Shown here in pieces: positions 8,517 to 64,000 of a DNA stretch of 64,000 nucleotides. The position numbers and the translations under genes are program-made. The notes under the pieces are model-generated. The model worked only from the letters and a program-made list of their open reading frames with translations, ran no database searches and had not been told where the DNA came from. Source of the stretch: Ignatzschineria rhizosphaerae (GTDB lineage: Bacteria > Pseudomonadota > Gammaproteobacteria > Cardiobacteriales > Wohlfahrtiimonadaceae); contig NZ_CP093379.1 of the NCBI RefSeq assembly GCF_022655595.1, forward strand, positions 988,501 to 1,052,500, written 5' to 3'. Each line of letters opens with the position of its first letter. The first letter of the stretch is position 1.

Positions 8517-8592
<76 letters not shown>

Positions 8593-8597
8593 AGTTT

Positions 8598-8715: not shown

Positions 8716-8743
8716 AAAAAGCCACGAGTTTATCGTGGCTTTG
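8716..8743 (-). terminator. Terminator of gltP
   Basis: AAAGCCACGA pairs with TCGTGGCTTT around a 5-base loop. On the minus strand the stem is followed by TTTTTC. It lies about 60 bp past the gltP stop. Confidence 0.7.
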
Positions 8744-8801
8744 GATACTGATTTTTATAATGCTTCTTTAGATTATTCTTTATCTAAAAAAGTGATCATC
8801 A

Positions 8802-10130
8802 TTACTCTAAATCTTGATTATCATTAAAGTAGTTAGCCGCTTTATCTGCATCAAAACAGCCTTCCCATTTCGCGATCACTAATGCCGCAAGCGCATTTCC
8901 GACAACATTAAGAGCCGTTCTTGCCATATCTAAGATGCGATCAATCCCGATGATATAAGCCACACTTTCAAGCGGAATACCGACGGTACCAATGGTGGCA
9001 AGTAGTACTACAATAGAGACGCCAGGAACGCCAGCGATCCCTTTAGAAGTGAGCATTAAGGTGATTACTAAAATGATCTGATCAGTAATTGAGAGATCAA
9101 CACCAGTAATTTGGGCAAGAAAGATTGCAGCAATACTTTGATAGAGCGTTGAGCCATCTAAGTTAAATGAGTAACCAATAGGAATCACAAAGCCTGTTAC
9201 TCTTGAAGGTGCGCCGTAACGCTCCATTTTCTCCATAATTCGTGGGAGAACTGTTTCAGAACTGGCGGTGGTATACGCTAAAATTAACTCATCTTTTAGA
9301 ATCTTCAGAAGCGTAAAGATATTAATGCCGCAGATAAATGCTACAAATCCTAGTACAACTAGGGCAAAGAAGATAATTGTGCCGTAAACTAAAAGTGCAA
9401 GTTTTAAAAGAGGATAGAGCGACTCATACCCAAAGTTTGCAACCGTTGTTGCTATGAGGGCAAAAACACCAATAGGCGCATAACGCATGATCATATTAGT
9501 GACCTTAAACATTGCGCCAGAAACACCCTGAAGCACTTGGATTACCGGCGTTTTTTGTGCAAGCGGCATTGAAGCTAATCCTAAACCAAAAAGCACAGAG
9601 AAGAAGATCACAGCAAGCATACTATTATTGTTAGACATTGCCGCAAAAACATTACTTGGGAAAATGGAGAGTAGTGTTGTTACAAAAGGGCTTCTGCTAG
9701 CATCAGACATCTCTTCAATCGTATGGCTATAACTTGAGATATCAGATTCAACGAGGGAGTTAATATCAAGCCCGCTTCCAGGTTGGAAGATATTCGCCGA
9801 AATAATTCCTACAATAATGGCAACGGTTGTGATGATTTCAAAATAGACAATCGTTTTTAAGCCCATTTTCCCAAGTTCTCGGGTATTTTCACCGCCGGCG
9901 ATACCTACCGTTAAGGTGGAGATAACAATCGGTACCACGATCATTTTTATCATGATGATAAGGATTTGCCCTGCAGGGTAGAAAATATTATTGATAATCC
10001 ATGTCTTAGACTCATGATCATGTAAAATGATACCGGCAACGATTCCAAGCGCTAAAGCGATCAGTATTTGAAAGCCGAGATTGGGCATTTTAAATCGTTT
10101 ATGAGTTCGAACTGCGATAGTATCAGTCAA
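8802..10130 (-). CDS. gltP: Proton/sodium-glutamate (dicarboxylate) symporter, GltP type
   Basis: A 442-residue DAACS-family secondary transporter of the inner membrane. TASSETVLPRIMEKMERYGA is the serine-rich re-entrant hairpin HP1, and GYSFNLDGSTLYQSIAAIFL contains the NLDGST substrate/cation motif of TM7; SKGIAGVPG marks HP2. The wording around these motifs is closer to GltP than to DctA, but glutamate versus C4-dicarboxylate specificity cannot be settled by eye. Transcribed alone, with its own terminator, between two tRNA-Gly genes. Confidence 0.85.
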   Translation of the reverse strand: MTDTIAVRTHKRFKMPNLGFQILIALALGIVAGIILHDHESKTWIINNIFYPAGQILIIMIKMIVVPIVISTLTVGIAGGENTRELGKMGLKTIVYFEIITTVAIIVGIISANIFQPGSGLDINSLVESDISSYSHTIEEMSDASRSPFVTTLLSIFPSNVFAAMSNNNSMLAVIFFSVLFGLGLASMPLAQKTPVIQVLQGVSGAMFKVTNMIMRYAPIGVFALIATTVANFGYESLYPLLKLALLVYGTIIFFALVVLGFVAFICGINIFTLLKILKDELILAYTTASSETVLPRIMEKMERYGAPSRVTGFVIPIGYSFNLDGSTLYQSIAAIFLAQITGVDLSITDQIILVITLMLTSKGIAGVPGVSIVVLLATIGTVGIPLESVAYIIGIDRILDMARTALNVVGNALAALVIAKWEGCFDADKAANYFNDNQDLE

Positions 10131-10511
10131 AATAACCTCCTAAATGCATTTTAGTTGATAGATAATTTCTAAGACCAGAGGATTTACGAGAGGTTGTTTT
10201 CTATATAGCAAAGGCTCGAGAACTGCAGGGTAAATCACGGTGTTTTAGAATATCTTTTAGTATAAAAGTGCAATATATTATATTAGTTTGCAGATAATTG
10301 CTAAATATAATTGGCATTGGTTGAGCAAGATAGGTATCTTTTAACAATGCCTAATTGATTTTAGTTTTTAATGGTTTTACTGTTTATCTATAAAAAGGCC
10401 TTATTTTTTAATGAGTTAAGTTATTTTGATGAATCTATGTTGTACTAACATTACTCACTTTATAAACTTAGTTGACAACCTTATAAAAAGCGCTATAATT
10501 CATCTCCTATT
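10131..10511. other. Gene-free interval upstream of gltP
   Basis: About 380 very AT-rich bases separating the gltP start from tRNA-Gly copy 2. It must carry the gltP promoter. I see no further gene; the only clear signal is the tRNA promoter at its right end. Confidence 0.5.
10472..10499 (+). promoter_or_regulatory. Promoter of tRNA-Gly copy 2
   Basis: TTGACA (10472-10477) and TATAAT (10494-10499), spacer 16 bp; both hexamers perfect. Confidence 0.85.
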
Positions 10512-10587
<76 letters not shown>

Positions 10588-10594
10588 AATTTTA

Positions 10595-10623
10595 AAAGTC
10601 TAACTTTTTAGTTAGGCTTTTTT
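10595..10623 (+). terminator. Terminator of tRNA-Gly copy 2
   Basis: AAGTCTAAC pairs with GTTAGGCTT (one G-U pair), followed by T5. Close relative of the copy 1 terminator with a single change in the left arm. Confidence 0.75.
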
Positions 10624-10777
10624 GTGATTACTCATTATTGACAATGAGTATTTCAATGCTCCATTAAGACAGCGCTTAGATATTTGTTTTGAATATTGAG
10701 ATTTGAGCTTGTTAACTCTGAATAAGTAAGCGACCTATAGGAGCGATGATCTGTTTTTAACCAATTGCTAAATAAAC

Positions 10778-10806
10778 TTTGCTTATATGATTTTATTCGC
10801 TATAAT
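10778..10806 (+). promoter_or_regulatory. Promoter of tRNA-Gly copy 3
   Basis: TATAAT at 10801-10806 is perfect; the best -35 is TTTGCT (10778-10783) with a 17-bp spacer, weaker than for the other three copies. The sequence after the -10 resembles that of copy 2. Confidence 0.65.
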
Positions 10807-10818
10807 TTATTTCCTGTT

Positions 10819-10894
<76 letters not shown>

Positions 10895-10901
10895 AAATTT
10901 T

Positions 10902-10938
10902 AAAAGCTCAGTAATGAATCATTACTGAGCTTTTTTTA
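10902..10938 (+). terminator. Terminator of tRNA-Gly copy 3
   Basis: AAAAGCTCAGTAATG pairs with CATTACTGAGCTTTT in a long perfect stem with a tiny loop, then a T run. Unrelated in sequence to the terminators of the other copies. Confidence 0.88.
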
Positions 10939-10942
10939 TTGC

Positions 10943-11144
10943 TGAAATTACGTGTCAGCAGTTTTAAGCCTTTTTCAGTTCGTGCCAGAATTTAATGCGT
11001 AATAGCTATAAAATCGGTTTAAAAGGGGTGCATCAAATTGCCGATTCATCAGTTATGAAAAGCGCAAGTATGTTTCTATCCGGCATCATGTCAGAGTTTG
11101 ATTCACGCTATACAGTTTTACTTTTAAAATAGTGTTTCTTAAAC
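10943..11144 (+). repeat. Dispersed ~200-bp repeat, copy A (frame broken)
   Basis: Starts TGAAATTACGTGTCAGCAG and ends TTTCTTAAAC. It aligns over its full length with the reverse complement of 26845-27064; a block of about 38 bases around ATGCGTAATAGCTATAAAAT is identical in both. The 50-codon frame of copy B is recognisable (ISYEKRK...SIR), but it is reached only after a frameshift and then ends early. Its right edge coincides with the stop codon of the DUF4326 gene. Confidence 0.75.
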
Positions 11145-11587
11145 TAACTACGCGATTTTTTAAGGTATTGATGTTCCATCAATAGCAGGTTCACTTGACC
11201 ATGTAGGGTATGGGTTTCCTCTTTTGTAAGAGATTCATTATTACTAGCCTTGATAGCTAGCGTCTCTATCTCACTATCAAAGTGGCTAAAAAGAAAATTT
11301 AATATACTGATTAAAACTTCCCCATGACAATGTTTCGGTTTGCAATAACAGCCAAGAACTTTATCTTTCAACGTTAAAAATGTCAGCATAAAGGCTGTAT
11401 TTTGCATCAGCTTATCTTTAATATAGGGTTCATATTTGGCAATGGCTGCCTCACGGTTTTGATCGTTACGATAATAGGGGTTGCCATAAAGCCCCTTTTG
11501 TCCATAACGATTTCCTCGCCCTATATAGATATCAAATGCTTCCTCGCGAAGATTTACAAATTGTGTCTGTGTTACAGATTGTCCCAT
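11144..11587 (-). CDS. DUF4326 domain protein
   Basis: A 147-residue protein that fits DUF4326: it has VNLREEAFDIYIGRGNRYGQ, then GLYGNPYYRNDQNREAAIAKYEPYI and the cysteine/histidine motif GCYCKPKHCHGEVL. DUF4326 proteins are common in phages and mobile DNA; no biochemical role is established that I know of. It stands alone on the minus strand between tRNA-Gly copies 3 and 4 and is flanked on both sides by copies of the dispersed repeat in the same orientation, which suggests it arrived as accessory DNA. The last residues (KKSRS) and stop abut the repeat edge. Confidence 0.8.
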   Translation of the reverse strand: MGQSVTQTQFVNLREEAFDIYIGRGNRYGQKGLYGNPYYRNDQNREAAIAKYEPYIKDKLMQNTAFMLTFLTLKDKVLGCYCKPKHCHGEVLISILNFLFSHFDSEIETLAIKASNNESLTKEETHTLHGQVNLLLMEHQYLKKSRS

Positions 11588-11616
11588 GTTCTAATTAAAA
11601 GTCCTTAATATAAATA

Positions 11617-11786
11617 TTTATAGCAAGATCGGTTTAAAAGAGACTGAATCAGCAGATTGCTGGCGCATCGGTTACGAGAAACTCAAGAACGATTCTATTG
11701 GTATCATCCCAGTGAGCTTGTGAGTTTGATTTAGATGTTGCATTGTTTTGATTTTAAAATAATGTCTCTTAAACCGAGTCAACTAT
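11617..11786 (+). repeat. Dispersed ~200-bp repeat, copy C (decayed)
   Basis: TATAGCAAGATCGGTTTAAA, then GACTGAATCAGCAGATTGCT and the terminal TCTTAAACCGAGTCAACTAT align with copies A and B. The frame of copy B can be followed (IGLKETES..CWRIGYEKLKN) before stops intervene. The 5' third of the unit is missing. Confidence 0.65.
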
Positions 11787-11802
11787 ATGTTGATAAGCCT
11801 TA

Positions 11803-12669
11803 TTAAATAACGCTACTAGCCGCAGCGCCGACTGCAGATGCTAAGGCTAATGCATCTTTTACACTCATAAAAGCTTGTGGATCTTTGCAATCTTGTAAAA
11901 CAACAGCGCCTTCTTCAAACATTAAGAGCTCATTTGTGGCAAATTGATGCCAATTTTCATTAGAGGTTAAAGGCAGCGTTGCAATAACAGCGACACGATC
12001 TTTCGGAGTTGTTACGGCGGCAAAGTCGATATTGACATCATCATCGAGTAAGGTTGCCTCACCAAAAGGGGCTTGGCGTATGATGTAGTGTAATAGAGTA
12101 CTAGAATGGGCAATCATCCATTCTCCATTACTAAGTATAAAGTTAAAGATTCCCGCTTCTCTAATTTTTTCAGTCAATTGCTGAATTTCTCTAAAAATCT
12201 CTTCCTTTGTCGGTTTATGATTAAATCGCTGTCTAAGATGCTCTAGGATATAACAAAAAGCCTGTTCAGAATCTGTTGTACCGACAGGGCGATAATATTG
12301 CCCTTGGCTCTCTTTAAAAAGTGTTTTAGGATCATTTAAATGCCCATTATGAGCAAAGAGCCAATATTCACCCCACAGCTCACGCATAAAGGGATGAGTA
12401 TTGGCAAGGGATACATGTCCTTGGGTTGCTTTACGAATGTGGGAAATCACATTTTTAGATTTGATTTGATATGCTTTTACAAGGTCTGCAACAGGAGAAG
12501 AGGCGCAAGGGCGATCATCTTGATAAATTCGAATTCCTTTACCTTCAAAGAAAGCGATACCAAAACCATCTACATGAATATCAGTTTCACCACCACGTCG
12601 ACGAAAGCCTTCAAAGGAGAAGACAATATCGGTGGGGGTATTACAATTCATTCCTAATAATTGACACAT
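11803..12669 (-). CDS. Class II glutamine amidotransferase, YafJ type
   Basis: A 288-residue Ntn-hydrolase: after removal of Met1 the N-terminal residue is the catalytic Cys2 (MCQLLGMNCNTP). Family landmarks follow: FRRRGGETDIHVDGFGIAFF, SHIRKATQGHVSLANTHPF, and FAHNGHL. It hydrolyses an amide, by family analogy glutamine or a gamma-glutamyl compound; the physiological substrate of YafJ is not firmly known. Transcribed alone; upstream is a 294-bp gap before tRNA-Gly copy 4. Confidence 0.9.
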   Translation of the reverse strand: MCQLLGMNCNTPTDIVFSFEGFRRRGGETDIHVDGFGIAFFEGKGIRIYQDDRPCASSPVADLVKAYQIKSKNVISHIRKATQGHVSLANTHPFMRELWGEYWLFAHNGHLNDPKTLFKESQGQYYRPVGTTDSEQAFCYILEHLRQRFNHKPTKEEIFREIQQLTEKIREAGIFNFILSNGEWMIAHSSTLLHYIIRQAPFGEATLLDDDVNIDFAAVTTPKDRVAVIATLPLTSNENWHQFATNELLMFEEGAVVLQDCKDPQAFMSVKDALALASAVGAAASSVI

Positions 12670-12921
12670 GATAGAGGTTTCCTCTTATTTTTTATAATGA
12701 TAAGTGCTTTTTTAATATTATTAAGATTACCATGTTTAAAGGCTAATAACTTACTATAAGCGCTATTGTTCAGCAGTATAGAGAATAACGCATAAAGTAG
12801 AATCAGGTTTTTTTATATTTGCGCTATAAAAGGGAATCTAAGCGGTGGTGTTATCTAAAATATTTTTAAGGGGATTAATTAAGGGTATTAGCAGATGGTT
12901 AGTATTTGGTCACTAATGGCG

Positions 12922-12949
12922 TTGACAGAATAAGAAATCGGTCTATAAT
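12922..12949 (+). promoter_or_regulatory. Promoter of tRNA-Gly copy 4
   Basis: TTGACA (12922-12927) and TATAAT (12944-12949), spacer 16 bp, both perfect. The following bases (TAG..TACATCTTCT) are nearly the same as in copy 1. Confidence 0.85.
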
Positions 12950-12963
12950 AGCCTACATCTTCT

Positions 12964-13039
<76 letters not shown>

Positions 13040-51383: not shown

Positions 51384-51502
51384 ATACAGAGAGTAATAAT
51401 CCTAAATTTGTGTAGACAAGGAGCAGACTTTAACTAAATGTAGCTTAAATAGGCTCTTAATAGTCGTTAAATCAGTTACCAAAAAATAATCAGAGGTTAG
51501 TT

Positions 51503-51880
51503 ATGCAAGAGTTATTTCGTCAAATTATCCATTTGGAAAAGAAATTACATCACCCTGAGCATCGTCAAAATAGACTGTTTTTAACAGCAACACTCCATGA
51601 TGATTTCTTGGAGTTTGGTCGTTCGGGGTTTACAACTAATAAAGCGCAAACTTTACAGGATCTATTAGGCGTTGAACCAAATTCTGTTTCCATGATTCAT
51701 TCTGAAAATTATGTCTCGGTTCTACTGAAACCAGGCGTAATATTGGTGACATATCAGAGTTATCAATTAAAAAATCAAGAGCGAATTAAACTTACGAACC
51801 GATCATCTGTTTGGGTAGAAACACGCTCTACAGATTGGCAGTTACGATTTCATCAAGGTACGCCGGTAGCAATAGATTAG
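51503..51880 (+). CDS. DUF4440-like (NTF2 fold) protein
   Basis: A 125-residue protein with the pattern seen in DUF4440/SnoaL-like proteins: N-terminal helices (QELFRQIIHLEKKLHHPEHR), LTATLHDDFLEFGRSGFT, and the closing WQLRFHQGTPVAID. Fold assignment is from these motifs; no substrate is known. It is the last ordinary chromosomal gene before the recombinase cluster, so its downstream side marks or adjoins the left boundary of the island. Confidence 0.7.
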   Translation: MQELFRQIIHLEKKLHHPEHRQNRLFLTATLHDDFLEFGRSGFTTNKAQTLQDLLGVEPNSVSMIHSENYVSVLLKPGVILVTYQSYQLKNQERIKLTNRSSVWVETRSTDWQLRFHQGTPVAID

Positions 51881-52090
51881 GAAACTCATAGATTAAGAGG
51901 CAACATAACAAGCATTAAGTATTGTGGCTAGTATATTTCTATTTTTCTGATATATGTAAAACGTCTGATTCTATATATTATGTTAAATTAACGGTACCTA
52001 CAATTCTACTTCACGAATCTACTAAAATAACTAAATTTATGATGTAACCTGTTAGACTGATAATTCTTATTTTTAGGTTTTGTAGTCAAA
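51881..52090. other. Boundary interval between chromosome and recombinase island
   Basis: 210 AT-rich bases. No terminator or clear inverted repeat is visible. The left end of the mobile element is expected here, but with only one end in the window the attachment site cannot be defined. Confidence 0.4.
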
Positions 52091-53315
52091 ATGTATATCA
52101 ATAAAAAAATTAAAGTTCAAAATGAAACTGGTCATTATTTAATAAGAAAAGATACGCAATTACCTCTTATGTTTCCTCTATTGTATAAAGTATTTAGGCT
52201 TCGCAATAAATCGGTTAGTACTCAAAAAGTTACAATATTAGCTATACTTAATTGGTACAATTATTGGGCTTTTAAAAAACATGAATGCTTTGATACCTCT
52301 TTTTTCAATAGTAAGTATGATCTTGAAATCATCTATCCAGAATTTGATGGTTTTTTATTATTTCTGTCCAAATCATGTAAGAAATCAGTAAAATCCACGT
52401 CCATGTATTTATCATGCTTAAAAGGTTTTTTTGAATATTTAGCATTACGCTATACTAGTGCTAAATATGAGTCATGCAATAAAGAAGTTAATCATAATGT
52501 TCAATTTTTACGTATACACAACCGTTTAAATACTTTGTTTCAATATAATGAAACTAATGCCTTATCGTTAAATAAAAGCTGGAATGTTCCATTAATTCAA
52601 ATAGATAAAGATCTTTTAGATAAGATTTTAAATATTGTCAAACCATCAAGTAAACTTACTGTTAATCCCATGAATCCCTGGAAGACACCCCATATCCAAT
52701 TAAGAAATTATATTATAATCAGTTTATTAGCGAATTATGGTTTAAGGATAGGAGAACTCTTATCTTTGACTATTCATAGTATAAAACCTAATTTATCAGG
52801 TAATGGCTATTCTTTGATAGTAACTGAGTCAAATGAAGAAGACAGTAGATTTAGCAAGCCTTTAATTAAAACAACAGATTCACATAGAAATATATTTTTA
52901 TCTCCTTTTCATTATGAATTATTAAGTGTTTATCTTAATGTAGTCAGATTGCAGAGCCCTACTCACCATTCATTTCTATTTATTAGTTCAGGATCAAAAC
53001 GTCATGCTTTAAGTTATGAACAAGTAAAAAAAATAGTATCTAAATTATCAAATGTAACTAAAGAATTTTATCCAGAGTTGTTAGATATGAAAACTTTTAA
53101 GTTAACTGCTCATACTTTTCGTCATGTATGGGCTACTCATTACTTAGAATATCTTGTAGAAACTGAAAGGCAAGATTTAGAGGTAGCTAAAGATAACTTA
53201 AGATCTATGGGGGGGGTGGAATATGATGAGTGAAATCCCTACATATTACGCTAATGAATATATTTCTAGAAAAGCAAATAAAGCCAATCAAAAGCGAATT
53301 CTTAAAGGATTGTAA
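52091..53315 (+). pseudogene. Tyrosine recombinase 1 (TnpA-like), interrupted by a G8-tract frameshift
   Basis: As written the frame from 52091 stops at 53233 after 380 codons. Catalytic residues visible are Arg219 (YGLRIGEL) and His341/Arg344 (AHTFRHVW), but no tyrosine box. At 53209-53216 there is a run of eight G. Read with seven G the frame continues WNMMSEIPTYYANEYISRKA and ends at 53315, adding the expected C-terminal Tyr box (~residues 385-390) for 407 residues, and leaves 3 bp to the next gene. So this is a frameshifted, phase-variable or miscalled gene. N-terminal SAM-like DNA-binding region at ~40-125. Visibly more AT-rich than the chromosome. Confidence 0.85.
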
Positions 53316-53318
53316 TCT

Positions 53319-54839
53319 ATGCCAAAGTTACAAGGCGACTTTTTTTTAAATAGTGCTATCGCACTAGATCTTACTCAAGATCAAAGAGATTTTTTAATAC
53401 TCAGTGCCATACCCACTAACCTTAAGTTAATAAGTCGAGATTTTGATAGTGAATACGTTGAAACAAATGTAGATGTATGGCGGATAAAATATTCAGGCCG
53501 AAGTTACTTATTTAAGTTTGACCTGAAAGATACTTATAAGAACAAGTTTTTGAAATGGGTTACTTCATCAATTTTAAAAGTACATAGTATTAGCTATGGA
53601 TATGCTTGCTATTTAGCGCTCACTAAATTCCTGCTATCAGATTCAACCCAAATATCTTTTAGTAGCACTCTTTGCTATCTTCAGTCAGAAACTGTTTTAG
53701 AAAACACGAAAATTTATTACCCATTAAAAAGGGTTATTTCTTTTCTAATAGAATCTGAGTTTCCTGAATTCCCTTTAGAGGCTCTCTTTGAATTAGAATC
53801 TATTCCTAAGCCTAAATTAAAAGACTGGGAGTATTACTACCAGTTTGATATAAAAATCAAACCTGATTTAAAACGATTTATACGTAATGCAATTTTAAAT
53901 TTGGTCCAGGATTTAAGTAAGCTATCTTACGAGGAGATTATATATCTATCTACACTAGTAGTATGTTATGAATCTGGTCTCAGACCTTTTCAACTATTTA
54001 ATTTAAAAATGCAAGATTTTAAAAAGCATAATATGTTTTTTGAATTGGATGTTTCTAGTCAAAAAATCTCAAGTAAACGTAAAAAAAAACAGGTTGTATC
54101 TTTAAGTAGTGAGGCTGGGAAAATACTGGAAGAATTAGTAAATAGAAGACTATTAATACCTTTTGAAACAGATCAGCTTTTACAAATCTCTCCATTAACA
54201 CCAATGATTCAAACAGACTCTCATTATTATCTTAATTCTGCTCTAAAATTAATTCAGAAAAAATGTAACTCACAGAATTCTGATGATCATTTACCTATAA
54301 TTTCAGCATATGATTTTCGACATAATGTAGGTCATAGCTTGGCTATGAGTGGAGCATCTGCTGATGAAATTGCCTATATGCTTGGACATAATTCAACAGT
54401 TGTCGCTAGACATTATATCTCTGCCACCCCTGAGATTGCTATTTTGAAACAAAAAGCCCTAGGAGAAAACAATGCTTATTTAGATATGATGGGGCTAATA
54501 ATGACAGGAGATATAACGACCGAGGATAAGTGGACTACAGAAAAGGTATCGGGGAGCATTGCATTAAGTCTAGTTACAGGCATAGGAGGATGTGGTGCTG
54601 AAAGCTGTCACTTTATCCCAGTGAGAGCATGCTATGGTTGTAGTAATTTTTATCCCTTTAGAGATGCTGATCATAATCATGTTAAAAATCTATTAAAAGA
54701 GGAAGTGAAATTACTAATGGATTTATCTGATAATACAGGTCAAGCTAGCCGAAATCCTATTATAAATGAGTATGAACAAACAATTTTTGAAGTAGATAGC
54801 GTCATTACTAGATGCCAGAAACAAGGGAGAGGGAAATAA
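53319..54839 (+). CDS. Tyrosine recombinase 2 of a three-integrase cluster
   Basis: A 506-residue recombinase. Arg222 is in YESGLRPFQLFNLK; the second box is AYDFRHNVGHSLAMSG with Arg334, followed by YMLGHNST and the nucleophile Tyr366 in ARHYIS. After the catalytic domain comes a cysteine cluster (C424, C429, C437, C440 in GGCGAESCHF and ACYGCSNF), probably a zinc finger. This arrangement is seen in multi-recombinase elements of the Tn554 type. It ends one base into the start of recombinase 3. Confidence 0.88.
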   Translation: MPKLQGDFFLNSAIALDLTQDQRDFLILSAIPTNLKLISRDFDSEYVETNVDVWRIKYSGRSYLFKFDLKDTYKNKFLKWVTSSILKVHSISYGYACYLALTKFLLSDSTQISFSSTLCYLQSETVLENTKIYYPLKRVISFLIESEFPEFPLEALFELESIPKPKLKDWEYYYQFDIKIKPDLKRFIRNAILNLVQDLSKLSYEEIIYLSTLVVCYESGLRPFQLFNLKMQDFKKHNMFFELDVSSQKISSKRKKKQVVSLSSEAGKILEELVNRRLLIPFETDQLLQISPLTPMIQTDSHYYLNSALKLIQKKCNSQNSDDHLPIISAYDFRHNVGHSLAMSGASADEIAYMLGHNSTVVARHYISATPEIAILKQKALGENNAYLDMMGLIMTGDITTEDKWTTEKVSGSIALSLVTGIGGCGAESCHFIPVRACYGCSNFYPFRDADHNHVKNLLKEEVKLLMDLSDNTGQASRNPIINEYEQTIFEVDSVITRCQKQGRGK

Positions 54840-57256
54840 TGCTAACCAGGAGAAATAATCTCAAATCGTTTATTCAAAATGAAAAGACCTACTATAATGA
54901 ACATTTACTAAAAACATCTGGAGAAGATTGGAATAGTCCTATTTGGGCTGGTAAAGGATCAGGCTGGTTAGCTATCAGAAACAAGTCTATTAGTTTTAAT
55001 TTTGAGTCTTTAAAGAGATTGACAGGATTCAAAACTAACATTTCAACTATAGATTCAAATTATCAAAACTTCATGAAGTCGATGATTATATATAGATTTA
55101 GATTAAACAATGTCTCCCCACAAGCATTGAATGCTTTACTACTTAATCTAAAACGTATTTATATTATTTTATATGAAATAACAGGGCAAACAGACCCTTG
55201 TTATATCACAACAGAAATAATACAAGAAACAGATACTCGTCTTGTAAAGTCAGGATATAAAAATATATTTGATGCTGTGGCAAACTTATGTGTAATTCAG
55301 GGAATCTTAAATAATTTAAATCTTACCTTATCCCCCCTGCTCCATACTAATAAACATAAACTTAACAACACGTATAACAAAATTAACAAGCAAAAAATTC
55401 TCTTAAAAACAAATGTTGTAGATGACTTAGCATATGAAGGTGATGACAAACTTATTTCTTTTGATGCTTTTAGAGCCTATGCATGGATTACTAATAACAC
55501 TAGAAATAAATGTGAACTATTAGGGTGCCGTATAGTAGACATTCTTTTTGCTACAGGCATGAGAATAAATGAAATTCTATATTTACCAAGAGATTGCTGG
55601 GTAGAAAGAGAAATAGAATCAGAGTCGCACCTTGATTCTATTAAAGATTTAAATAATAAATCCTTAAAAATGTATGGTCTTAGATATTTCTCAGAAAAAA
55701 ATTCTGATGCCTATATTCATTGGATAGAACCCAATGCTGTTTCGATAGTTAAACGAGCTATTCAAGATATTTTGGAACTGACTTATGACTATCATTTACA
55801 AGCTAAGTTTCTCGTAGAAAATGAAGGAGCTCGAATTCTTAATAAAGATATATTTAGAGATGAAGTTTCTTTGTTTGATGTGCTAGAAAAATTATTCGAA
55901 ACCAATCGTTTTTTCAAATGGTTCGAACCCAAGAAAGGTAGGAAAAAGAATCTACTTATTCTTTTAAAGGAAAGTGTTGAGCACTGGTGTTCATTAAACA
56001 ATATTTCCCCTATTAGAATGATTGATGTGAAAGTAAGGTTTTCAATAGAAGAGAATAGATTTATTAATGATCCTACACTAAGGCATTCAACCTCAATTCC
56101 TATATATAAAGTTGAAGATTGGGAAAATGCTCTAAAAAAGCATTTCAATAACCCTAAACAGTTTCTACACTTCAACTTTAAAATTAGAAATGCTGAGAGT
56201 AAAGTTAGATTAGATGAACTGTTATTGGTAGCTCCCCTTGGATCTACTAATGTTAATAATGCTATTAGATTGCTTCCTGTAGTGGAACCAATAAGTTACC
56301 AGTCAATTTCAAAATTTCTCTCATCAAATGGGAAAAACAATAATCAAAACATCTTCGATGTTCATAAACTCTATGAAGCTGATGGAAATAGAATTAATAT
56401 TAATACTCATTTTATGAGACACAATATCAATACTTTTCTTGCTCTTGAAAATATTAGCGAGCATCAACAAGCTATTATGATGGGAAGAAAAGATATTAGG
56501 CAGAATAAAGCTTATCAGCATTTACCTGAAGAGCATCACTATCAGCTTCAAAGTCGTTTTCAGATCAATAAACAAAAAGAATCAGATACTCCAAAAGAAG
56601 GGGAAATTGAGGCATTAATTACAAACCCATTAGATCACTTAAGCACTGAGCCGATGTTGTTTTCTGAACAATTAAATTTAGAAAAGAATGTCCAAAGAGC
56701 ATTTCATTCTTTAGACTCATCTATTCAAACCAAAGAGCTAACTTTATCTCTCTGTGAAAATAATTTACTTTTGAACGAACTGCAGAATACTTATAATGAA
56801 ATTGAAAACTCAAGCGGTCCTCAGTCTGCAAAGGAATTTATCAATACACATGGAGGTTCTTTGCATATAGTTCCTAATGGGGCTTGTACGAGAAATATAG
56901 CGCTTCATGGCTGTCATAAAAGAATGAAATGTATCAGTGGAGATGGCTGCTCAAATCTAACTGTAACTGGTCGTATTGGAGAGTTATCCAATATCAAAAC
57001 AACTATTAACAACATGCGTAATAACATTATTAAATTAGAAAACTTACAGGAAAAAGATCCACAATATAGTAGAGCATTGATAGAACAACAGTCTGATTTG
57101 ATCAATATGGAGAAAGTATTGAATAAAGCAGAATTAGCTGCCCAAAATAATCTAAAACTATATGTTTTTGATAATGGTAATAACTACTCAGCCAATCAAC
57201 GTCCCACTATGCTCGTTGATTTATTTCGAAATGCAATAGATAATCAAGACTCTTAA
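54839..57256 (+). CDS. Tyrosine recombinase 3, large, of a three-integrase cluster
   Basis: About 805 residues from ATG 54839, which overlaps the previous stop (TAATG) and has AGAGGGA upstream; the frame is open to 54812. Arg242 is in FATGMRINEILYLP; the second box is HFMRHNINTFLA (His524, Arg527), with MMGRKD in place of the usual LGH and Tyr559 in NKAYQHL. A ~270-residue insertion separates Arg I from box II. A C-terminal Cys motif (GACTRNIALHGC.. and KCISGDGC) and a long helical tail follow. Very AT-rich. Confidence 0.85.
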   Translation: MLTRRNNLKSFIQNEKTYYNEHLLKTSGEDWNSPIWAGKGSGWLAIRNKSISFNFESLKRLTGFKTNISTIDSNYQNFMKSMIIYRFRLNNVSPQALNALLLNLKRIYIILYEITGQTDPCYITTEIIQETDTRLVKSGYKNIFDAVANLCVIQGILNNLNLTLSPLLHTNKHKLNNTYNKINKQKILLKTNVVDDLAYEGDDKLISFDAFRAYAWITNNTRNKCELLGCRIVDILFATGMRINEILYLPRDCWVEREIESESHLDSIKDLNNKSLKMYGLRYFSEKNSDAYIHWIEPNAVSIVKRAIQDILELTYDYHLQAKFLVENEGARILNKDIFRDEVSLFDVLEKLFETNRFFKWFEPKKGRKKNLLILLKESVEHWCSLNNISPIRMIDVKVRFSIEENRFINDPTLRHSTSIPIYKVEDWENALKKHFNNPKQFLHFNFKIRNAESKVRLDELLLVAPLGSTNVNNAIRLLPVVEPISYQSISKFLSSNGKNNNQNIFDVHKLYEADGNRININTHFMRHNINTFLALENISEHQQAIMMGRKDIRQNKAYQHLPEEHHYQLQSRFQINKQKESDTPKEGEIEALITNPLDHLSTEPMLFSEQLNLEKNVQRAFHSLDSSIQTKELTLSLCENNLLLNELQNTYNEIENSSGPQSAKEFINTHGGSLHIVPNGACTRNIALHGCHKRMKCISGDGCSNLTVTGRIGELSNIKTTINNMRNNIIKLENLQEKDPQYSRALIEQQSDLINMEKVLNKAELAAQNNLKLYVFDNGNNYSANQRPTMLVDLFRNAIDNQDS

Positions 57257-57260
57257 TTAA

Positions 57261-57782
57261 TTGAGTGAAAATTGGATGAGCACTAGTATAAAAAGATTAG
57301 CCGGGAAAGATCTCGATATTCTCGTAGAAAAAGAGCTTCAAGAAATGCTACAGGAAGGATATGATCTCTCCCCTATCTCAGCGAAAGTTGTGCATTTAAG
57401 ATTACTTGAGAAACAAATTATTAATGGGGGATTAAGCACTTTAAGTACTCCATATAGAAAAAATCTTATAGCTGAATATAAAGATAAACAATTATATGAA
57501 GCAAATTTAACAGAAGAAGCTAAAAGACAATTAAGTTCTAATAGATCATTAGAGGGCTATAAACGCCGTTACCAAGAGAAGTGTGATGAAGTCACAGCTC
57601 TCGAAGCAATTGTACAAAATAATATTGCTGCTTTAGTTGAAATAGTTATAGCGGTTGAGAGCAGAACACCTCTAAAAATTGAAAATATTCTTGCCCCTAC
57701 CCTGCTAACAGACTTAGATATACAAACAGAGACTAAATTACATAAAAAAAATCTCGAAGTAGTTACTATAAAAAAGTCTTAA
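57261..57782 (+). CDS. Small helical protein of the recombinase operon, unknown function
   Basis: 173 residues if started at TTG 57261; ATG 57276 (MSTSIKRLAGKDLDIL) is a likelier start and gives 168. Predicted largely alpha-helical, with a charged coiled-coil-like middle (EGYKRRYQEKCDEVTALEAI). It follows recombinase 3 by a few bases, in the place where Tn554-type elements carry tnpC and where gamma-mobile-trio elements carry a third, non-recombinase protein. Homology to either is not shown. Its stop overlaps the stop of the convergent zinc-finger gene by two bases. Confidence 0.65.
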   Translation: MSENWMSTSIKRLAGKDLDILVEKELQEMLQEGYDLSPISAKVVHLRLLEKQIINGGLSTLSTPYRKNLIAEYKDKQLYEANLTEEAKRQLSSNRSLEGYKRRYQEKCDEVTALEAIVQNNIAALVEIVIAVESRTPLKIENILAPTLLTDLDIQTETKLHKKNLEVVTIKKS

Positions 57783-59095
57783 CCTAATGAATAGTTGTGC
57801 ATAATAAAATCAAGAGTTGCATCTATAGTTTCCCCCTTCCTGATTAGATCAGCAAAACTATTCAGCACATCTTTTTCAATATTATATTCAACAGCTTGCT
57901 GCAATATATACATGGACTTAGAGTGTGTCTCTGAAAAATCTTCTATTTGATCCTTCTTTGAAAAAATCAATTTCACCTGTTCAGCTGGTGTATATTCATC
58001 AATTTCAAATAATTCATAAAAGAACTGACTTAAAATACTTACTGATGAACCTTGACTACGATTCCAAGGCATAGTGGATGCCTCATTTTTAAGAATTAAA
58101 TCTAAGAGCCGTTGAAGCTTTCCTAATAACGTTTTTGATGCCTTGTCCTTGTTATAGTAGGAACGAGTTGATAAAGCAGCAGCATCTCTCACTATTCTCC
58201 AAATAATGGACCATACTTCTGACATACTATATTTTTCTAGAGATGTACGAATAAGGTTATTTATTTTTTGATAATCATCTTCATGAATTTCAAGTCCATG
58301 ATGACTATTTTGCATTTCAAAATAAGCCATACAATCACTCGTAGCGATATCTAACCATACTTGATATATTTTATCACATGGGGTTATTCTTCTCTGCCTT
58401 AAAAGTCTAATGGTATCAGATATAGGAGTACCTGCTTTATCTGGTACAAAAACATAGGTAACGTAATAATAGTAGTAAGATAAAGATTTATCATCGTTCA
58501 ATACATATGCATTGCTATTAGCTTTAGATGGAGAATCGATAATCACACCCTCAGCGATGAGTTTTTTGATAATCGCAAAAATTTCTTTACCAGTAGGTGC
58601 TAGTTCTGTACATTCATCGACTTTAAATCCATTAGAAATAGAACTAGAAGTAAGAGCCTTACTCAATCCAATCAGAAGCAGCTTAATATGTACAGGAATT
58701 TTGGAATAATCATAGCGGATCTTAGCATTATGCTCAATTCGTGTAGCGATTCTTTGTTGCAATAATAGTTGCTCTTTCTGTTTGCGCTGCAATAAAGCAT
58801 CTTTTTTTCTTATTTCACATTCTTTACAATCTCTATGATGTTTAAAGGAAGATTGACTGTCTGTTCGGGAAGTACATAGAAAAGGTTCTCCACATGAAGG
58901 ACAAGAATATTTATCGTTCCATGCCTTTGAAATACTTAGAATATAATCTAAAAGCTTTGGAAGAGTTTTTATATCTTTAAATGGCAGTAAATTACTGGTC
59001 TTGACTATGAATTTACCATCTTCATCCTGCCCCCAGTATTCATTTACTAATTTAATATCAGCCAGATCCTCTGAAAATATTTCTACTTTTATCAT
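57779..59095 (-). CDS. Zinc-finger protein of unknown function (island cargo)
   Basis: A 438-residue soluble protein I do not recognise. Residues 65-93 form a clear metal site: C65-x2-C68, H86/H87, C90-x2-C93 (CPSCGEPF and HHRDCKEC). A lysine/glutamine-rich helix follows (KKDALLQRKQKEQLLLQQRI), then a region around 145-215 that could be a winged helix, and a helical C-terminal half. It converges tail-to-tail on the recombinase operon and is divergent from the methyltransferase gene over a 174-bp shared upstream region. Regulator or nucleic-acid-binding partner are possibilities only. Confidence 0.6.
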   Translation of the reverse strand: MIKVEIFSEDLADIKLVNEYWGQDEDGKFIVKTSNLLPFKDIKTLPKLLDYILSISKAWNDKYSCPSCGEPFLCTSRTDSQSSFKHHRDCKECEIRKKDALLQRKQKEQLLLQQRIATRIEHNAKIRYDYSKIPVHIKLLLIGLSKALTSSSISNGFKVDECTELAPTGKEIFAIIKKLIAEGVIIDSPSKANSNAYVLNDDKSLSYYYYYVTYVFVPDKAGTPISDTIRLLRQRRITPCDKIYQVWLDIATSDCMAYFEMQNSHHGLEIHEDDYQKINNLIRTSLEKYSMSEVWSIIWRIVRDAAALSTRSYYNKDKASKTLLGKLQRLLDLILKNEASTMPWNRSQGSSVSILSQFFYELFEIDEYTPAEQVKLIFSKKDQIEDFSETHSKSMYILQQAVEYNIEKDVLNSFADLIRKGETIDATLDFIMHNYSLG

Positions 59096-59269
59096 TATAT
59101 TATGTCTCTTATTTTAGGTTAATCTGTTTTAATTCTACCGTTTAAAGCAATATTTTAGTTGTACTATAAATTTATCCATTTTCATAGTGGGCAAACTCGA
59201 TTCATCCTAACCCGTATTTATTTCTATTAGTGGTAAACTATTCGATAATAAAATTAACTAGTCATTACC

Positions 59270-62005
59270 ATGGATCAGAATATGGCAATTAACCAAACAG
59301 AATTATTTAGTAAGCTTGAAAAACTCACACAAAACAAAGATCAAGATAATTTCATCTTTGATTTCTTAAGCCTCTATGACTTCCCTAAATCTACGATTAC
59401 TCGACTTAAAAAAACGGTTGCTGGGGAAATAGATAATATCAATGTTGCCGCAGAGCCGGAAAAAGGTGAGGTTGCCAACCAAAAAGGGATTTACTTTAAG
59501 CCCATTATTGATGGTGAAAAGCTATTGGAAACAATGGATTTCTTAAGAGACAGTGCTACTATCCAATCGAAAGGCATTACCTTTATTATCGTGACTGATT
59601 ATGAAGATATCTTGGCTTACGATGTTGAAAATGAAGAAATGATAGATTGTCCTTTCACAGATTTGCATAAAGAATATGGCTTCTTTTTACCCCTAGCTGG
59701 ATATGAAAAAGGTGCTGATTACAGTGATAATCCTGCGGATGTAAAGGCTGCGGAGAAGCTAAGTCGTTTATTCGATTTAATCCGTTATAAGAATGAATTC
59801 AATACTGATGCTGAAATCCATGCGCTCAATGTCTTTTTAACTCGTTTACTCTTCTGTTTTTTCGCTGAAGATACCGCTATTTTTAATAAAAATCAGTTTA
59901 GCGATACTTTGGCTAAACATACTAAAACAGATGGTTCTGACTTAAAAGGATTTTTAAAATCATTATTTCTGGTTTTAAACAGTGAGCCTTCCTCAGAATT
60001 ACGCCAAAACTCAGCATCTCATTTTACGCAGTTCCCATATGTTAATGGCCGTCTTTTTGCACAAGAAGATACTGTTCCTGAGTTCGATGCACGAACACGC
60101 CGTATGCTTCTTGAGTGTAGTTCTTTAAACTGGTCCGAAATTAATCCTGATATTTTTGGTTCAATGTTTCAGGCGGTGATTCACGAAAATCAAAGACGTA
60201 GTCTGGGCCAACATTATACTTCTGTCCCTAATATTATGAAGCTACTACGTCCACTTTTCTTAGATCCACTTGAAGAAGAGTTGATTCGAAGCCGTCATAG
60301 TGAAAAGAAATTAAAAGAGCTCCTATTGCGTTTAAGCAATATTCGCATTTTTGACCCTGCTTGCGGATCAGGTAACTTTTTGATCATTGCTTTTAAAGAG
60401 CTACGCCTACTTGAAATTCGGATATTCCAAGCCTTAGAAGCTTTAAATGATAAGCCTGAGATGATGATGTCAAATATCCGTTTAAGCCAATTCTATGGTA
60501 TTGAGATAGATGACTTTGCCCATGAAATTGCTCTACTCTCTTTATGGCTAGCAGAACACCAAATGAATCGAGAATTCAATCGATTACTACACAGTCATGT
60601 CCCTACTCTGCCTCTTCATGAAAGCGGTAATATTATCCAAGGAAACAGCCTTAGAACCGATTGGGTAGAGTTTTGTCCTGCAAACAAAGGGGAAGAAGTT
60701 TATGTTGTCGGTAATCCTCCATTTGTTGGAGTCAATAGTCGTTCAAAAGAACAATCTAAAGATATGGAAATTGTTTTTAAAAGCTTTAATACCTTTAAAG
60801 CATTGGACTATGTAACATCATGGTTTTGGAAAGGCGCACAATATGTAAACAATACCGATTCTAAGATGGCATTAGTAGCAACCAATTCTATTTGTCAGGG
60901 TGTTCAAGTAGCCCCTCTATGGGAATCAATTTTTAATTTAGGTTTAGAAATAGATTTCGCTTATCAAGCCTTTTTATGGAAAAACAATGCTAGAGATAAA
61001 GCTTCTGTTTATGTAGTAATTGTAGGATTATCAAAAAAAGCACTTAATAAAAACAAATCCATTTACAAAGAAATTAATAATAACTGGCATCAACTAAATG
61101 TTAGTAATATTAGCCCTTATTTAATTGAAGGAGTAAATATAGCCATTCGAGAAAGAAGGACTTTGCCAATATCTGATATTCCTAAAATGATAAAAGGCAA
61201 TATGCCCATCGATGGCGGAAACTATTTATTAACAGATGATGAAAAGCAAGAATTGCTAAGATTAGAACCTGAAGCTATAAACTTTATTAAAAAGGTCGTG
61301 GGTTCTCAAGAGTTTCTTCAGGGAATTAGTCGTTGGTGTTTATGGTTAGCAGATTTATCATTAGAGGATATTAAACAGTACCCTCAGATTCAAAAGAGAG
61401 TAGATGCTGTAAAAAAAATACGACAGAGTAATCCAGATACTGTAAAGCTTGCTGCCAGACCTCATCAATTTAGAGAAACTAATAATCCAGATACTTTTAT
61501 TATTATTCCAAGTGTTTCAACAGAAAGAAGAGTGTATGTCCCTATTGACATACTTGGGAAAGAGACAATTATCACAAATTTGAGTTTTTGGATTCCGAAC
61601 GCTGATTTATACCATTTTGGTATTTTGACATCCCTTTTGCATAATGACTGGATGAGGGTAGTAGCAGGAAGATTAAAGAGTGATTACAGATACTCGTCTA
61701 CATTGGTTTACAATACCTTTCCATGGCCTCAAAACATCGGTTTACAACGACGCAATAATATAGAGAAACTAGGGAAAGATATTCTACGCACACGTGCTCA
61801 GTATCCTAATAAAACACTAGCAGATCTATATGATCCCGATACAATGCCTATAGATCTATTAGAAGCGCATGAAACATTAGATCGAGCTGTTGAGAAGCTC
61901 TATCGGGATGCCCCTTTTAGAGATAGTACAGAACGTGTTGACTATCTATTTAAGCTCTATGAAAAGTTGATTAATGAAGAGAAAGCCCAAGGTAAAAAGA
62001 AATAG
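59270..62005 (+). CDS. MmeI/YeeA-like class I N6-adenine DNA methyltransferase
   Basis: 911 residues. SAM motif I is IRIFDPACGSGNFLI (~360-372); the catalytic motif IV is VVGNPPFVG (NPPF 482-485), giving N6-adenine specificity; GQHYTSVPNIM (~314) is the typical lead-in. The N-terminal ~180 residues (SRLKK-like start, KGIYFKPIID, FIIVTDYEDILAYD, FFLPLAGYEK) match large MmeI-type methyltransferases, but I see no PD-(D/E)XK nuclease residues of the kind MmeI carries. The C-terminal half should hold the target-recognition domain. Start could also be ATG 59282. The helicase starts 12 bp downstream, so the two are one operon. Confidence 0.85.
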   Translation: MDQNMAINQTELFSKLEKLTQNKDQDNFIFDFLSLYDFPKSTITRLKKTVAGEIDNINVAAEPEKGEVANQKGIYFKPIIDGEKLLETMDFLRDSATIQSKGITFIIVTDYEDILAYDVENEEMIDCPFTDLHKEYGFFLPLAGYEKGADYSDNPADVKAAEKLSRLFDLIRYKNEFNTDAEIHALNVFLTRLLFCFFAEDTAIFNKNQFSDTLAKHTKTDGSDLKGFLKSLFLVLNSEPSSELRQNSASHFTQFPYVNGRLFAQEDTVPEFDARTRRMLLECSSLNWSEINPDIFGSMFQAVIHENQRRSLGQHYTSVPNIMKLLRPLFLDPLEEELIRSRHSEKKLKELLLRLSNIRIFDPACGSGNFLIIAFKELRLLEIRIFQALEALNDKPEMMMSNIRLSQFYGIEIDDFAHEIALLSLWLAEHQMNREFNRLLHSHVPTLPLHESGNIIQGNSLRTDWVEFCPANKGEEVYVVGNPPFVGVNSRSKEQSKDMEIVFKSFNTFKALDYVTSWFWKGAQYVNNTDSKMALVATNSICQGVQVAPLWESIFNLGLEIDFAYQAFLWKNNARDKASVYVVIVGLSKKALNKNKSIYKEINNNWHQLNVSNISPYLIEGVNIAIRERRTLPISDIPKMIKGNMPIDGGNYLLTDDEKQELLRLEPEAINFIKKVVGSQEFLQGISRWCLWLADLSLEDIKQYPQIQKRVDAVKKIRQSNPDTVKLAARPHQFRETNNPDTFIIIPSVSTERRVYVPIDILGKETIITNLSFWIPNADLYHFGILTSLLHNDWMRVVAGRLKSDYRYSSTLVYNTFPWPQNIGLQRRNNIEKLGKDILRTRAQYPNKTLADLYDPDTMPIDLLEAHETLDRAVEKLYRDAPFRDSTERVDYLFKLYEKLINEEKAQGKKK

Positions 62006-62017
62006 AGGATAGTGAAG

Positions 62018-64000
62018 ATGAGTCAAACGGTCAATTTAGTAGAAGTGAATTATGAGCAGACAGGTGCTAGTACTCAGCAAAATACTATGGGTATGCGAGA
62101 GATGCAAGCTAGAGCTTATGCTTATAGAAATAGTCAATATCTATTGATTAAAGCGCCACCGGCATCTGGTAAATCAAGAGCTTTGATGTTTTTGGCCTTA
62201 GACAAACTCCAAAAGCAAAATATTCAAAAAGCAATTGTTACGGTTCCTGAAATGTCTATTGGAGGGTCATTTAAGGATACTGATTTAATACGATATGGTT
62301 TTTATGCGAATTGGCATATCGAAGATAAAAACAACCTCTGCCTAACTGATGGTGAGACAACAGGTAAAGTTGACCGTTTCGTTGCATTCCTAAAAAGCAG
62401 TTCCCCAGAGGATAATATTATCCTCTGTACACATGCAACACTGCGTCATGCTTTCAAAAAGCTAGAGCCTGAGGATTTTAATAATACCGTTTTAGCAATC
62501 GATGAATTTCATCATGTTTCTGCAGGTGATGAAAACATATTGGGTCATTTAATCGATGAAGTTATGCATGGTTCTAATGCTCATATTATAGCTATGACTG
62601 GCTCCTACTTTCGAGGCGATGCTGTTCCTATATTAGAACCAGAGGATGAAGCAAAATTTGAAAAGGTAACTTACACGTACTATGAGCAACTCAATGGCTA
62701 TGAGTTCTTAAAGTCATTAGGAATTGGTTATCATTTTTATCAGGGCCGTTATATAGATGCTTTGAATGAAGTTTTAGATACAAATCAAAAGACCTTAATC
62801 CATATTCCAAGTGTGAATTCTTCAGCATCGACAGGAAACAAGTATACAGAAGTTGGACATATTCATGATGTGATTGGTGAGGTTGTTGCCAAAGATCCAA
62901 AAACACATATTTTGACTTTAAAGCGCCATAGCGATGGTAAGCTGATTAAGGTAGCTGACCTTGTTGATGACAGTAAAGAGCGCCCTCTTGTCATGGAATA
63001 CCTCCGAAATGTTAATCATGCAGATGATATCGATATTATTATTGCTTTAGGTATGGCTAAAGAAGGTTTTGACTGGCCATGGTGTGAACATGCTTTGACT
63101 GTAGGCTTTCGAAATTCGCTCACAGAAATTGTACAGATTATTGGTCGAGCAACCCGTGATTGTGAAGGTAAAACCCATGCACAATTCACTAATCTTATTC
63201 CACAGCCTGATGCTACTAATGATGATGTCGTGGTTTCTGTGAACACCATGTTAAAAGCAATTAGTGCATCGCTCTTAATGGAGCAAATATTAAAGCCTAA
63301 TATCACCTTTAGACCCAGATCTAGCATCAATGAAGGTGAAAAGTTAGCACCAGGTACAGTTATTGTTGACGATACAACTAAAGCACCCTCTGCAAAGGTG
63401 CTTGAGATTCTTAATGGCTCTACAGATGATATTTTTGCAACCTTATTAAATACCCCTGAAGCCCAACAAGCCTATTGGTCTGAGCAAGGAATTATTGAAA
63501 CAGAGGTTGTTAATAAACTCATTATTCCGCAAATTATCCGAAAGCTCCATCCTGATCTTGATGATGAAGAAGTTGACCAAATTCATCAAGGATTATTGAC
63601 AAGCTTGTTTATCCGACAAAATGGTGGTGTTGTAGAAGGTACTTCCCTACCCTTGAATGCTATTATTGAAGGAGAATTAGCTGGAGGAGAGATAAGTTCT
63701 GAAGGACAACCTGGTGATTATAGTGGACAGCAATTTGTCAATATTGGCAATCGATTCATTAATTTAGATGATCTAAATGTGGATTTAATCGCTTCTGTAA
63801 ATCCATTTCAGGGAGCCTACGAAATACTGTCTAAAAATATTGATGCACCATTATTAAAAACCTTACAACAAAGTTTTGCATCCCAGAAAATTAATATGAC
63901 TGAGGAAGAAGCAGTTATGCTTTGGCCTAGAATCAATCAATTCAAGACAGATTATGACCGATTACCAGATCTTAATAGCAATGATAATATCGAGCGAAGA
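62018..64000 (+). CDS. SF2 DEAD/DEAH-type helicase, partial (runs off right edge)
   Basis: ATG 62018 with AGAGGAT upstream; 661 codons are open to the last base. Walker A is KAPPASGKSRAL (A46-S53), Walker B IDEFHH (D162, E163), motif III AMTGSYFRGD, motif V GMAKEGFDWPW, motif VI QIIGRATRD, all in order. A ~250-residue helical domain follows. It is paired with the upstream methyltransferase, as in the B. subtilis prophage yeeA-yeeB pair. Helicase plus methyltransferase suggests an ATP-dependent restriction or modification system; the nuclease, if any, would be in the missing C-terminus or the next gene. Confidence 0.85.
   Translation, partial: MSQTVNLVEVNYEQTGASTQQNTMGMREMQARAYAYRNSQYLLIKAPPASGKSRALMFLALDKLQKQNIQKAIVTVPEMSIGGSFKDTDLIRYGFYANWHIEDKNNLCLTDGETTGKVDRFVAFLKSSSPEDNIILCTHATLRHAFKKLEPEDFNNTVLAIDEFHHVSAGDENILGHLIDEVMHGSNAHIIAMTGSYFRGDAVPILEPEDEAKFEKVTYTYYEQLNGYEFLKSLGIGYHFYQGRYIDALNEVLDTNQKTLIHIPSVNSSASTGNKYTEVGHIHDVIGEVVAKDPKTHILTLKRHSDGKLIKVADLVDDSKERPLVMEYLRNVNHADDIDIIIALGMAKEGFDWPWCEHALTVGFRNSLTEIVQIIGRATRDCEGKTHAQFTNLIPQPDATNDDVVVSVNTMLKAISASLLMEQILKPNITFRPRSSINEGEKLAPGTVIVDDTTKAPSAKVLEILNGSTDDIFATLLNTPEAQQAYWSEQGIIETEVVNKLIIPQIIRKLHPDLDDEEVDQIHQGLLTSLFIRQNGGVVEGTSLPLNAIIEGELAGGEISSEGQPGDYSGQQFVNIGNRFINLDDLNVDLIASVNPFQGAYEILSKNIDAPLLKTLQQSFASQKINMTEEEAVMLWPRINQFKTDYDRLPDLNSNDNIERR

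Follow-up and report, generated by a model that had tools for sequence, protein, structure and literature searches.

A ginABCD-headed defence island of Ignatzschineria rhizosphaerae and its relatives probably use the XerD arm of dif as their attachment site

The island and its genes

We analysed a 64,000-nucleotide stretch of the Ignatzschineria rhizosphaerae genome (contig NZ_CP093379.1, positions 988,501 to 1,052,500 of the forward strand), referred to below as the window. Toward its end, three tandem tyrosine recombinase genes and a gene for a small helical protein head a mobile island. The four open reading frames are consecutive on the plus strand (52091-53233, 53319-54839, 54812-57256 and 57261-57782). 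The island starts at window position 51989, continues for about 9.3 kb past the window end, and reaches position 1061807 of the genome contig (G000:C1), which gives a length of 21,319 bp. An earlier note on this DNA had recognized the recombinase-headed, cargo-bearing mobile island, a view that we uphold, and had assigned it the coordinates 52091-62005, which are too short. The features are listed below, with positions beyond the window given on record L009.

51961..51988, plus strand: dif-like site acting as putative attL, with XerC-side arm ACGTCTGATTC, spacer TATATA and XerD arm TTATGTTAAAT; conserved in five relatives and not disrupted by the insertion
51982..51988, plus strand: left copy of the putative 7-bp crossover core GTTAAAT; right copy at L009:9402-9408
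51989..52090, plus strand: left end of the island; 14-bp inverted-repeat arm TAACGGTACCTACA (13 of 14 positions match the right end); CTTCAC box at a distance of 20 bp from the core
52091..53318, plus strand: ginA, tyrosine recombinase 1; open over 52091-53233, then with its C-terminal end in another frame
53319..54839, plus strand: ginB, tyrosine recombinase 2; 506 residues, C-terminal four-Cys cluster
54812..57256, plus strand: ginC, large divergent tyrosine recombinase; 814 residues from the first ATG, four-Cys cluster
57261..57782, plus strand: ginD, all-helical protein of 173 residues
57779..59095, minus strand: cargo protein of 438 residues with a Cys-rich motif; no family over the cut-off
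59270..62005, plus strand: cargo MmeI-type IIG restriction-modification enzyme
62012..64000, plus strand: cargo ResIII-type helicase-like protein, running off the window
L009, further cargo: T5orf172 protein (which we take to be GIY-YIG), SLATT protein with Drt3a and Drt3b, BovA, and a Cas2-like protein
L009:9408 (G000:C1:1061807): right end of the island

Conservation of the Gin proteins

The first and second recombinases scored 43.2 and 53.8 bits with Pfam Phage_integrase (cut-off 27.1), while the third stayed below the cut-off (15.1 bits). The family scan returned no family over its cut-off for GinD. Alignments of related copies bore out the Arg and His/Arg boxes and the Tyr that had been read from the window, with some substitutions. 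GinA kept R, K and R in all 25 aligned copies, H in 23, W in 24 and Y in 24, the missing Y being that of the broken end in the window. All 26 aligned GinB copies kept R, K, R, H, H and Y, with variation at the His/Lys position before the second Arg. The residues R, K, H, R, R and Y of GinC (R-K-HxxR-R-Y) were present in 28 of 28 copies; on this account, the GinC described here looks more complete than the GinC described in print. The extra Cys clusters that the earlier note had seen in two recombinases were also retained (four Cys in 26/26 copies of the second protein and 28/28 of the third). Of the sizes claimed, 506 residues held for the second protein, and the 805 residues given for the third had to be replaced by 814.

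The predicted GinC model had Cre as its first structural match (E = 1.6e-3), at a modest mean pLDDT of 70.5 and with a weak region at 540-635 containing part of the catalytic end. GinD was predicted to be helical (mean pLDDT 75.7), and its fold search against the PDB gave no match. Sequence searches of the PDB yielded weak Xer/XerA matches for GinB and GinA, none for GinC, and none of significance for GinD (best E 0.18). The window copy forms a long branch in the GinC tree, so its exact placement is unsure.

A run of G near position 53207 breaks the ginA frame, which leaves 380 residues in frame and the expected Tyr-bearing end in another; in many relatives, ginA is open across about 420-510 codons. 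Because of this break, the island copy in the window may be fixed, unless it is helped in trans or the break is a sequencing error. Decayed ginA genes occurred elsewhere, with an internal stop in E. coli locus L084, a frameshift in E. coli locus L085, and split genes in L046, L029 and L061. A specific pattern of independent ginA decay was dropped as an idea; ginB, ginC and ginD are also broken or split in other loci.

Assignment to the GInt family

We are highly confident that the feature is a GInt (ginABCD, cargo and a short AT-rich 3' end), belonging to a group with dif as its attachment site. GInts, the Tn6571 family, are defined by a ginABCD operon of three integrases and a small helix-loop-helix gene (Bardaji 2017, PMC5385486; here and below, statements on published elements refer to the parts of the cited sources that were covered). 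The earlier note held that the gene count fitted none of the multi-recombinase elements exactly and proposed a relative of Gamma-Mobile-Trio (GMT), Tn554 or RIT elements. The count matches that of the GInts exactly, and none of the GMT profile models matched the four proteins.

The locus set comprised 39 loci from a GinC-alignment scan of named bacterial genomes, four on viral contigs, and six plasmid loci fetched first. In 39 of these 49 loci, all four proteins are encoded on one strand and in the same order, which confirms the three recombinases and small helical protein as a unit; unrelated best matches for each protein, which had been named as a possible outcome, were not seen, as all four matched the same loci. 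One or more gin genes were absent from the other ten (L021, L034, L037, L043, L049, L051, L053, L057, L064 and L065), several of which lie at contig ends. The hosts include Acinetobacter, Psychrobacter, Enterobacterales and Vibrionaceae, among others, and a tblastn search with the third protein of the window matched 115 plasmid records.

A GinC profile search of 369 gamma-proteobacterial genomes gave four matches, including the source genome. Homologues of GinA, GinB and GinC follow one another in this order in the other three genomes, with GinD over the threshold (1e-2) in G287 only. In G260, where GinD falls under that threshold, the GInt lies directly after an SSB gene, a published GInt target. 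Since the profile matches reach this element, the group is tied to known GInts; since so distant a GInt sits at ssb, a part of the family, not all of it, targets dif.

The island shares further traits with the GInts. Its three tyrosine recombinases and small helical protein stand in order at one end as a putative operon; besides the kinship with the ssb GInt, it has an AT-rich 3' end, short imperfect direct repeats, and a site-specific insertion with an empty site in relatives. The GC content is 26.5% in the last 200 bp after the cargo, 31.3% in the whole island and 35-36% in the flanks. The direct repeats attL and attR read TTATGTTAAAT and TTAAGTTAAAT, with 10 of 11 positions matching and the final seven identical.

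The dif-like site and the empty site in relatives

The island directly adjoins a genus-conserved, dif-like site at the replication terminus. Five genus relatives (G001, G002, G004, G005 and G006) carry TGTCYGATTCTATATATTATGTTAAAT at this place; the window has CGTCTGATTC instead in the first part and is identical in the rest. The last 11 bases of the site equal the XerD arm of dif. Across about 1.04 to 1.10 Mb, the region that includes the island, the GC skew changes sign from positive to negative. In G006, the two flanks lie close together, the island is absent and the site is empty, with the left homology ending at the site. The third gene was lacking in all eight genus relatives searched, so the possibility raised earlier that the four genes occupy the same locus in all relatives did not hold. 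The suggested looks for an empty site and for matching ends both succeeded, the latter through the right copy of GTTAAAT and the inverted repeat formed by the two ends.

Exact junctions and a proposed mechanism

Two pairs of empty and filled sites allowed the junctions to be read to the base. The empty site in E. coli JME66 reads GGTGCGCATAATGTATATTAT-GTTAAAT-CATGTCTGAG. In E. coli 2015-01-2097, the whole dif is followed by the island, whose end reads CACAACATAA-GTTAAAT-CATGTCTGAG. The IncHI1 plasmids pMAK1 (empty) and pN19S0223-1 (filled) gave the same junction pattern. At the right junction of both pairs, as at that of the window (TTAA-GTTAAAT), the island supplies the bases that precede GTTAAAT. 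This places the exchange within the 7 bp of GTTAAAT, inside the XerD arm; all 28 bp of dif are intact on the ginA side, and a 7-bp repeat is formed. Such a crossover position does not fit an exchange by XerCD, which makes the gin recombinases the likely agents. As a separate observation, the empty pdif of pMAK1 (L116:1872) and that of pHCM1 (L117) are followed by GTTAAAT, 19 bp and GTTCATGAG, an arrangement resembling the left end of a GInt that lacks gin genes.

The left ends often carry STTCAY about 19-20 bp past the core; in the known right ends, RTGAAY precedes the core by about 19-20 bp. When right ends were sought by inverting the left arm, only that of the window was recovered. The spacing pattern taken from the known ends pointed to candidates in six further loci (L013, L038, L046, L047, L060, with two, and L084); two of these loci, L013 and L084, were compared with an empty site.

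From these data, a mechanism can be proposed. The joined circle would read RTGAAY, about 20 bp, GTTAAAT, about 20 bp and STTCAY, that is, inverted boxes around the core. GinA, GinB and GinC, together with GinD, would bind the island ends and the XerD arm of dif. Strand exchange by the gin recombinases within GTTAAAT would then insert the circle, each time in the same orientation. With dif rebuilt, dimer resolution should go on, and the site should stay open for the next island, so that islands could stack beside dif. E. coli PSS-16 (L085:38456-39126) has a gin operon at dif, with ginA annotated as frameshifted, followed by the tail of a second ginC (87% identity) and a second ginD, an array that exemplifies such stacking.

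The XerD arm beside ginA across the family

The association was counted in 54 loci with a ginA start, namely 34 of the 39 from named genomes, three of four viral, six of seven from plasmids (counting a Pseudomonas one), ten from E. coli, and the window. The XerD arm of dif, TTATGTTAAA, was located upstream of ginA and in the orientation of that gene, at no more than 3 kb in 50 loci and no more than 350 bp in 42. The corresponding chance expectations were 0.35 and 0.04, derived from four background matches elsewhere in these loci, in 921,870 bases on both strands. In five plasmid loci, the XerD arm was constant and the spacer between the arms variable; on the Pseudomonas plasmid, the arm differs in its last base.

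One head matched 300 of 5426 complete E. coli genomes, 69 of them across at least 80% of its length. For ten of the 25 matches listed, the left flank was the autotransporter/hipA terminus region in eight, the ydeT side was visible in three, and the XerD arm lay within 350 bp of ginA in nine.

No dif-targeting GInt was found among the freely available papers searched. The whole word 'dif' is absent from the main texts of PMC5385486 and PMC10214605, no word beginning with 'xer' occurs in the main text of PMC10121019, and the parts covered of PMC8138268, PMC12907356 and PMC9455709 mention no such element. The kind of element is known; dif or pdif as its target is the new part.

Cargo and neighbouring genes

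The downstream genes had been taken for cargo, which is borne out, and by their predicted functions they are mostly phage defence. The MmeI-type IIG restriction-modification enzyme scored 1006 bits in PADLOC, the SLATT protein with Drt3a and Drt3b constitutes DRT3 defence, and BovA is encoded on the minus strand. A small cargo protein with weak Cas2 matches is presumably VapD-like. The Cys-rich protein of 438 residues on the minus strand (57779-59095), beside the restriction-modification enzyme, is possibly a defence gene of a new type.

Downstream of the island lie DsbB and then an acyl-CoA dehydrogenase-type gene. Also outside it, a minus-strand membrane-protein gene (L009:14321-15214) ends in a repeated NMDHS peptide, encoded by a 15-bp tandem repeat. 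Elsewhere in the window, four tRNA-Gly(gcc) genes lie inside 4.5 kb (8517-13039).

Weighing the explanations

With a probability of about 80%, we propose that a broad gamma-proteobacterial group of GInts uses the XerD arm through its own recombinases, with a crossover in GTTAAAT that rebuilds dif. This would turn dif, and its copies on plasmids, into a docking site that defence islands can reuse and stack at; XerD may share the arm or compete for it.

Several observations weigh against this proposal. The mechanism is drawn from sequence comparison, and recombination itself was not observed. ginA is broken in both E. coli examples whose flank was fully read. The XerC-side arm in the window is unlike that of E. 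coli, and the whole site scores 14/22, equal to chance sites in the same stretch. Looking through the window for TTATGTTAAATTAAC, two mismatches being allowed, tells little by itself, as it gave one match with 0.83 expected. As the automatic whole-dif score is no better than chance, the case for this site rests on the XerD arm, the conservation in relatives and the GC skew. The right flank has diverged, with clear G006 homology resuming only near L009:9553, which leaves the motif to define the exact right edge. To the left of the site, 51399-51949, with a DUF4440 gene, is unmatched in G006. Four of the 54 loci (L045, L053, L054 and L092) have no XerD arm upstream, and in eight more it is 0.67-2.7 kb away. 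The loci were mostly recruited by their likeness to the GinC of the window or to a related head, and some are near-duplicates, so these counts are not independent. The distant GInt in G260 sits at ssb. Another distant GInt, that in G287 (L124:4774), lies beside a dif in the opposite orientation, as if it had entered from the XerC side, and the one in G218 lies beside the dif-like ACTTCGCATAA-tacata-TTATGTCAAAA. From the last two cases, recognition details evidently vary among GInts.

The host recombinases could be given a larger role. An IMEX-like passenger would be integrated at dif by host XerCD while the gin recombinases do something else; the site is indeed dif, and known dif-integrated elements use Xer (LME-1, PMC9765430; filamentous vibriophages, PMC4246890). 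A spacer exchange by XerCD, however, would leave the host TTATGTTAAAT at the right junction, whereas the sequences at the three right ends for which an empty site is at hand are ATAAGTTAAAT, ATAAGTTAAAT and TTAAGTTAAAT, with no recognizable XerC arm. Moreover, all four gin genes are reported as required in a GInt (Bardaji et al., PMC5385486), and we consider a mere passenger quite improbable. A hybrid synapse, with host XerD occupying its arm and cooperating there with the gin recombinases, would agree with a crossover inside the XerD arm and with an arm that is invariant while the spacer varies on five plasmid loci. The ssb-located GInt uses a site without known XerD binding; we judge such a synapse unlikely.

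The remaining alternatives concern the kind of element and the meaning of its location. A multi-recombinase head is shared with GMT, Tn554 and RIT elements, GinD has a weak similarity to TnpC (Bardaji et al., PMC5385486), and resemblances to Tn554 and RIT have been described (Nonaka et al., PMC10214605). Against this stand the archetype RIT recombinases of 315-410 residues (PMC10214605), compared with 506 and 814 here, and the three genes of Tn554. For GMT, no family match was obtained, NF040692 was found only elsewhere in the genome, and the loci around it had no phmmer match to the four proteins. Filing under any of the three was therefore rejected on gene count, sizes and absent family matches, and such a relationship is very improbable. 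Finally, terminus regions often collect mobile DNA, and the association with dif could reflect a permissive region without any target choice. The base-exact junctions in two pairs, the single orientation shared by 50 of 54 loci, and a matching arrangement on plasmid pdif sites speak so clearly against this that we give it hardly any credence.

If integration at the XerD arm by the gin recombinases is true, it would link chromosome dimer resolution to island integration. Bacteria use dif to separate joined chromosomes. Because the site is widely conserved, many gamma-proteobacteria and pdif plasmids would offer a safe harbour to a self-integrating island that spares it. It would also account for the defence-island location at the E. 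coli replication terminus (hipA-ydeT) and would suggest that cargo moves between chromosomes and conjugative plasmids at matching sites. For annotation, a simple rule would be to look for ginABCD next to TTATGTTAAA. The target at dif is the more interesting part of the finding, beyond what the letters of the window alone could show.

Comparison with known systems

The closest likeness is to the GInt/Tn6571 family, with which the island shares the ginABCD order, cargo, AT-rich 3' end, imperfect direct repeats, site specificity and defence cargo in E. coli (PMC5385486, PMC10121019); in E. coli, the element is called a Tn6571-family transposon and carries defence at several hotspots (Hochhauser et al. 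2023, PMC10121019). The targets named in print include ssb and the genes for an ABC transporter and a ribonucleotide reductase (PMC5385486), in contrast to dif and pdif here. Published GinC lacks the first Arg or the RHRY motif (PMC5385486, PMC10214605), whereas the GinC of this group keeps R-K-HxxR-R-Y. The strand-biased circularizing integrative elements (SE, PMC10214605) likewise have four genes, imperfect inverted end repeats and a TnpC-like fourth protein. Their gene order is different (intA-tfp-intB-srap), and their authors cluster SE and GInt proteins apart. By description, the second SE gene is non-catalytic, while here it keeps most catalytic residues in all 26 aligned copies.

RIT elements and Tn554 were also compared by description. 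The former have three recombinases of 315-410 residues and no fourth gene, and the latter two recombinases and TnpC, as against proteins of 506 and 814 residues and a fourth gene, and three recombinases with GinD, in the island. GMT islands are also recombinase-headed and carry defence genes; their proteins are different ones by the family and phmmer tests, and the left edge shared by two copies is not dif. NF040692 ('recomb_assoc'), which we take to be GmtX, matched twice in the source genome, at about 890.9 kb and 3023.2 kb of G000:C1 (L102:5885 and L115:6160), neither in the island. These two places are 99.95% identical across 6.4 kb, and their common left edge is TTATATATAGTACCTTGAACTATG.

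Two further systems share the site. IMEX such as LME-1 use dif as the attachment site and depend on host Xer exchange (PMC9765430), which takes place in the spacer; here, the island's own recombinases are the presumed agents and, by comparison of the right junctions, ATAA or TTAA is kept before GTTAAAT. The IS1202-family dif-hunter insertion sequences are found next to dif and pdif in a single orientation and without disrupting the site, as is the island; they have a single transposase and lie on the XerC side (PMC10132070), whereas the island is found on the XerD side. ISKpn21 and IS1202-family relatives have been reported beside dif-like sites (PMC10132070), and four loci of our set, L012 (annotated as ISKpn21 family), L013, L020 and L091, have an ISNCY transposase upstream of ginA.

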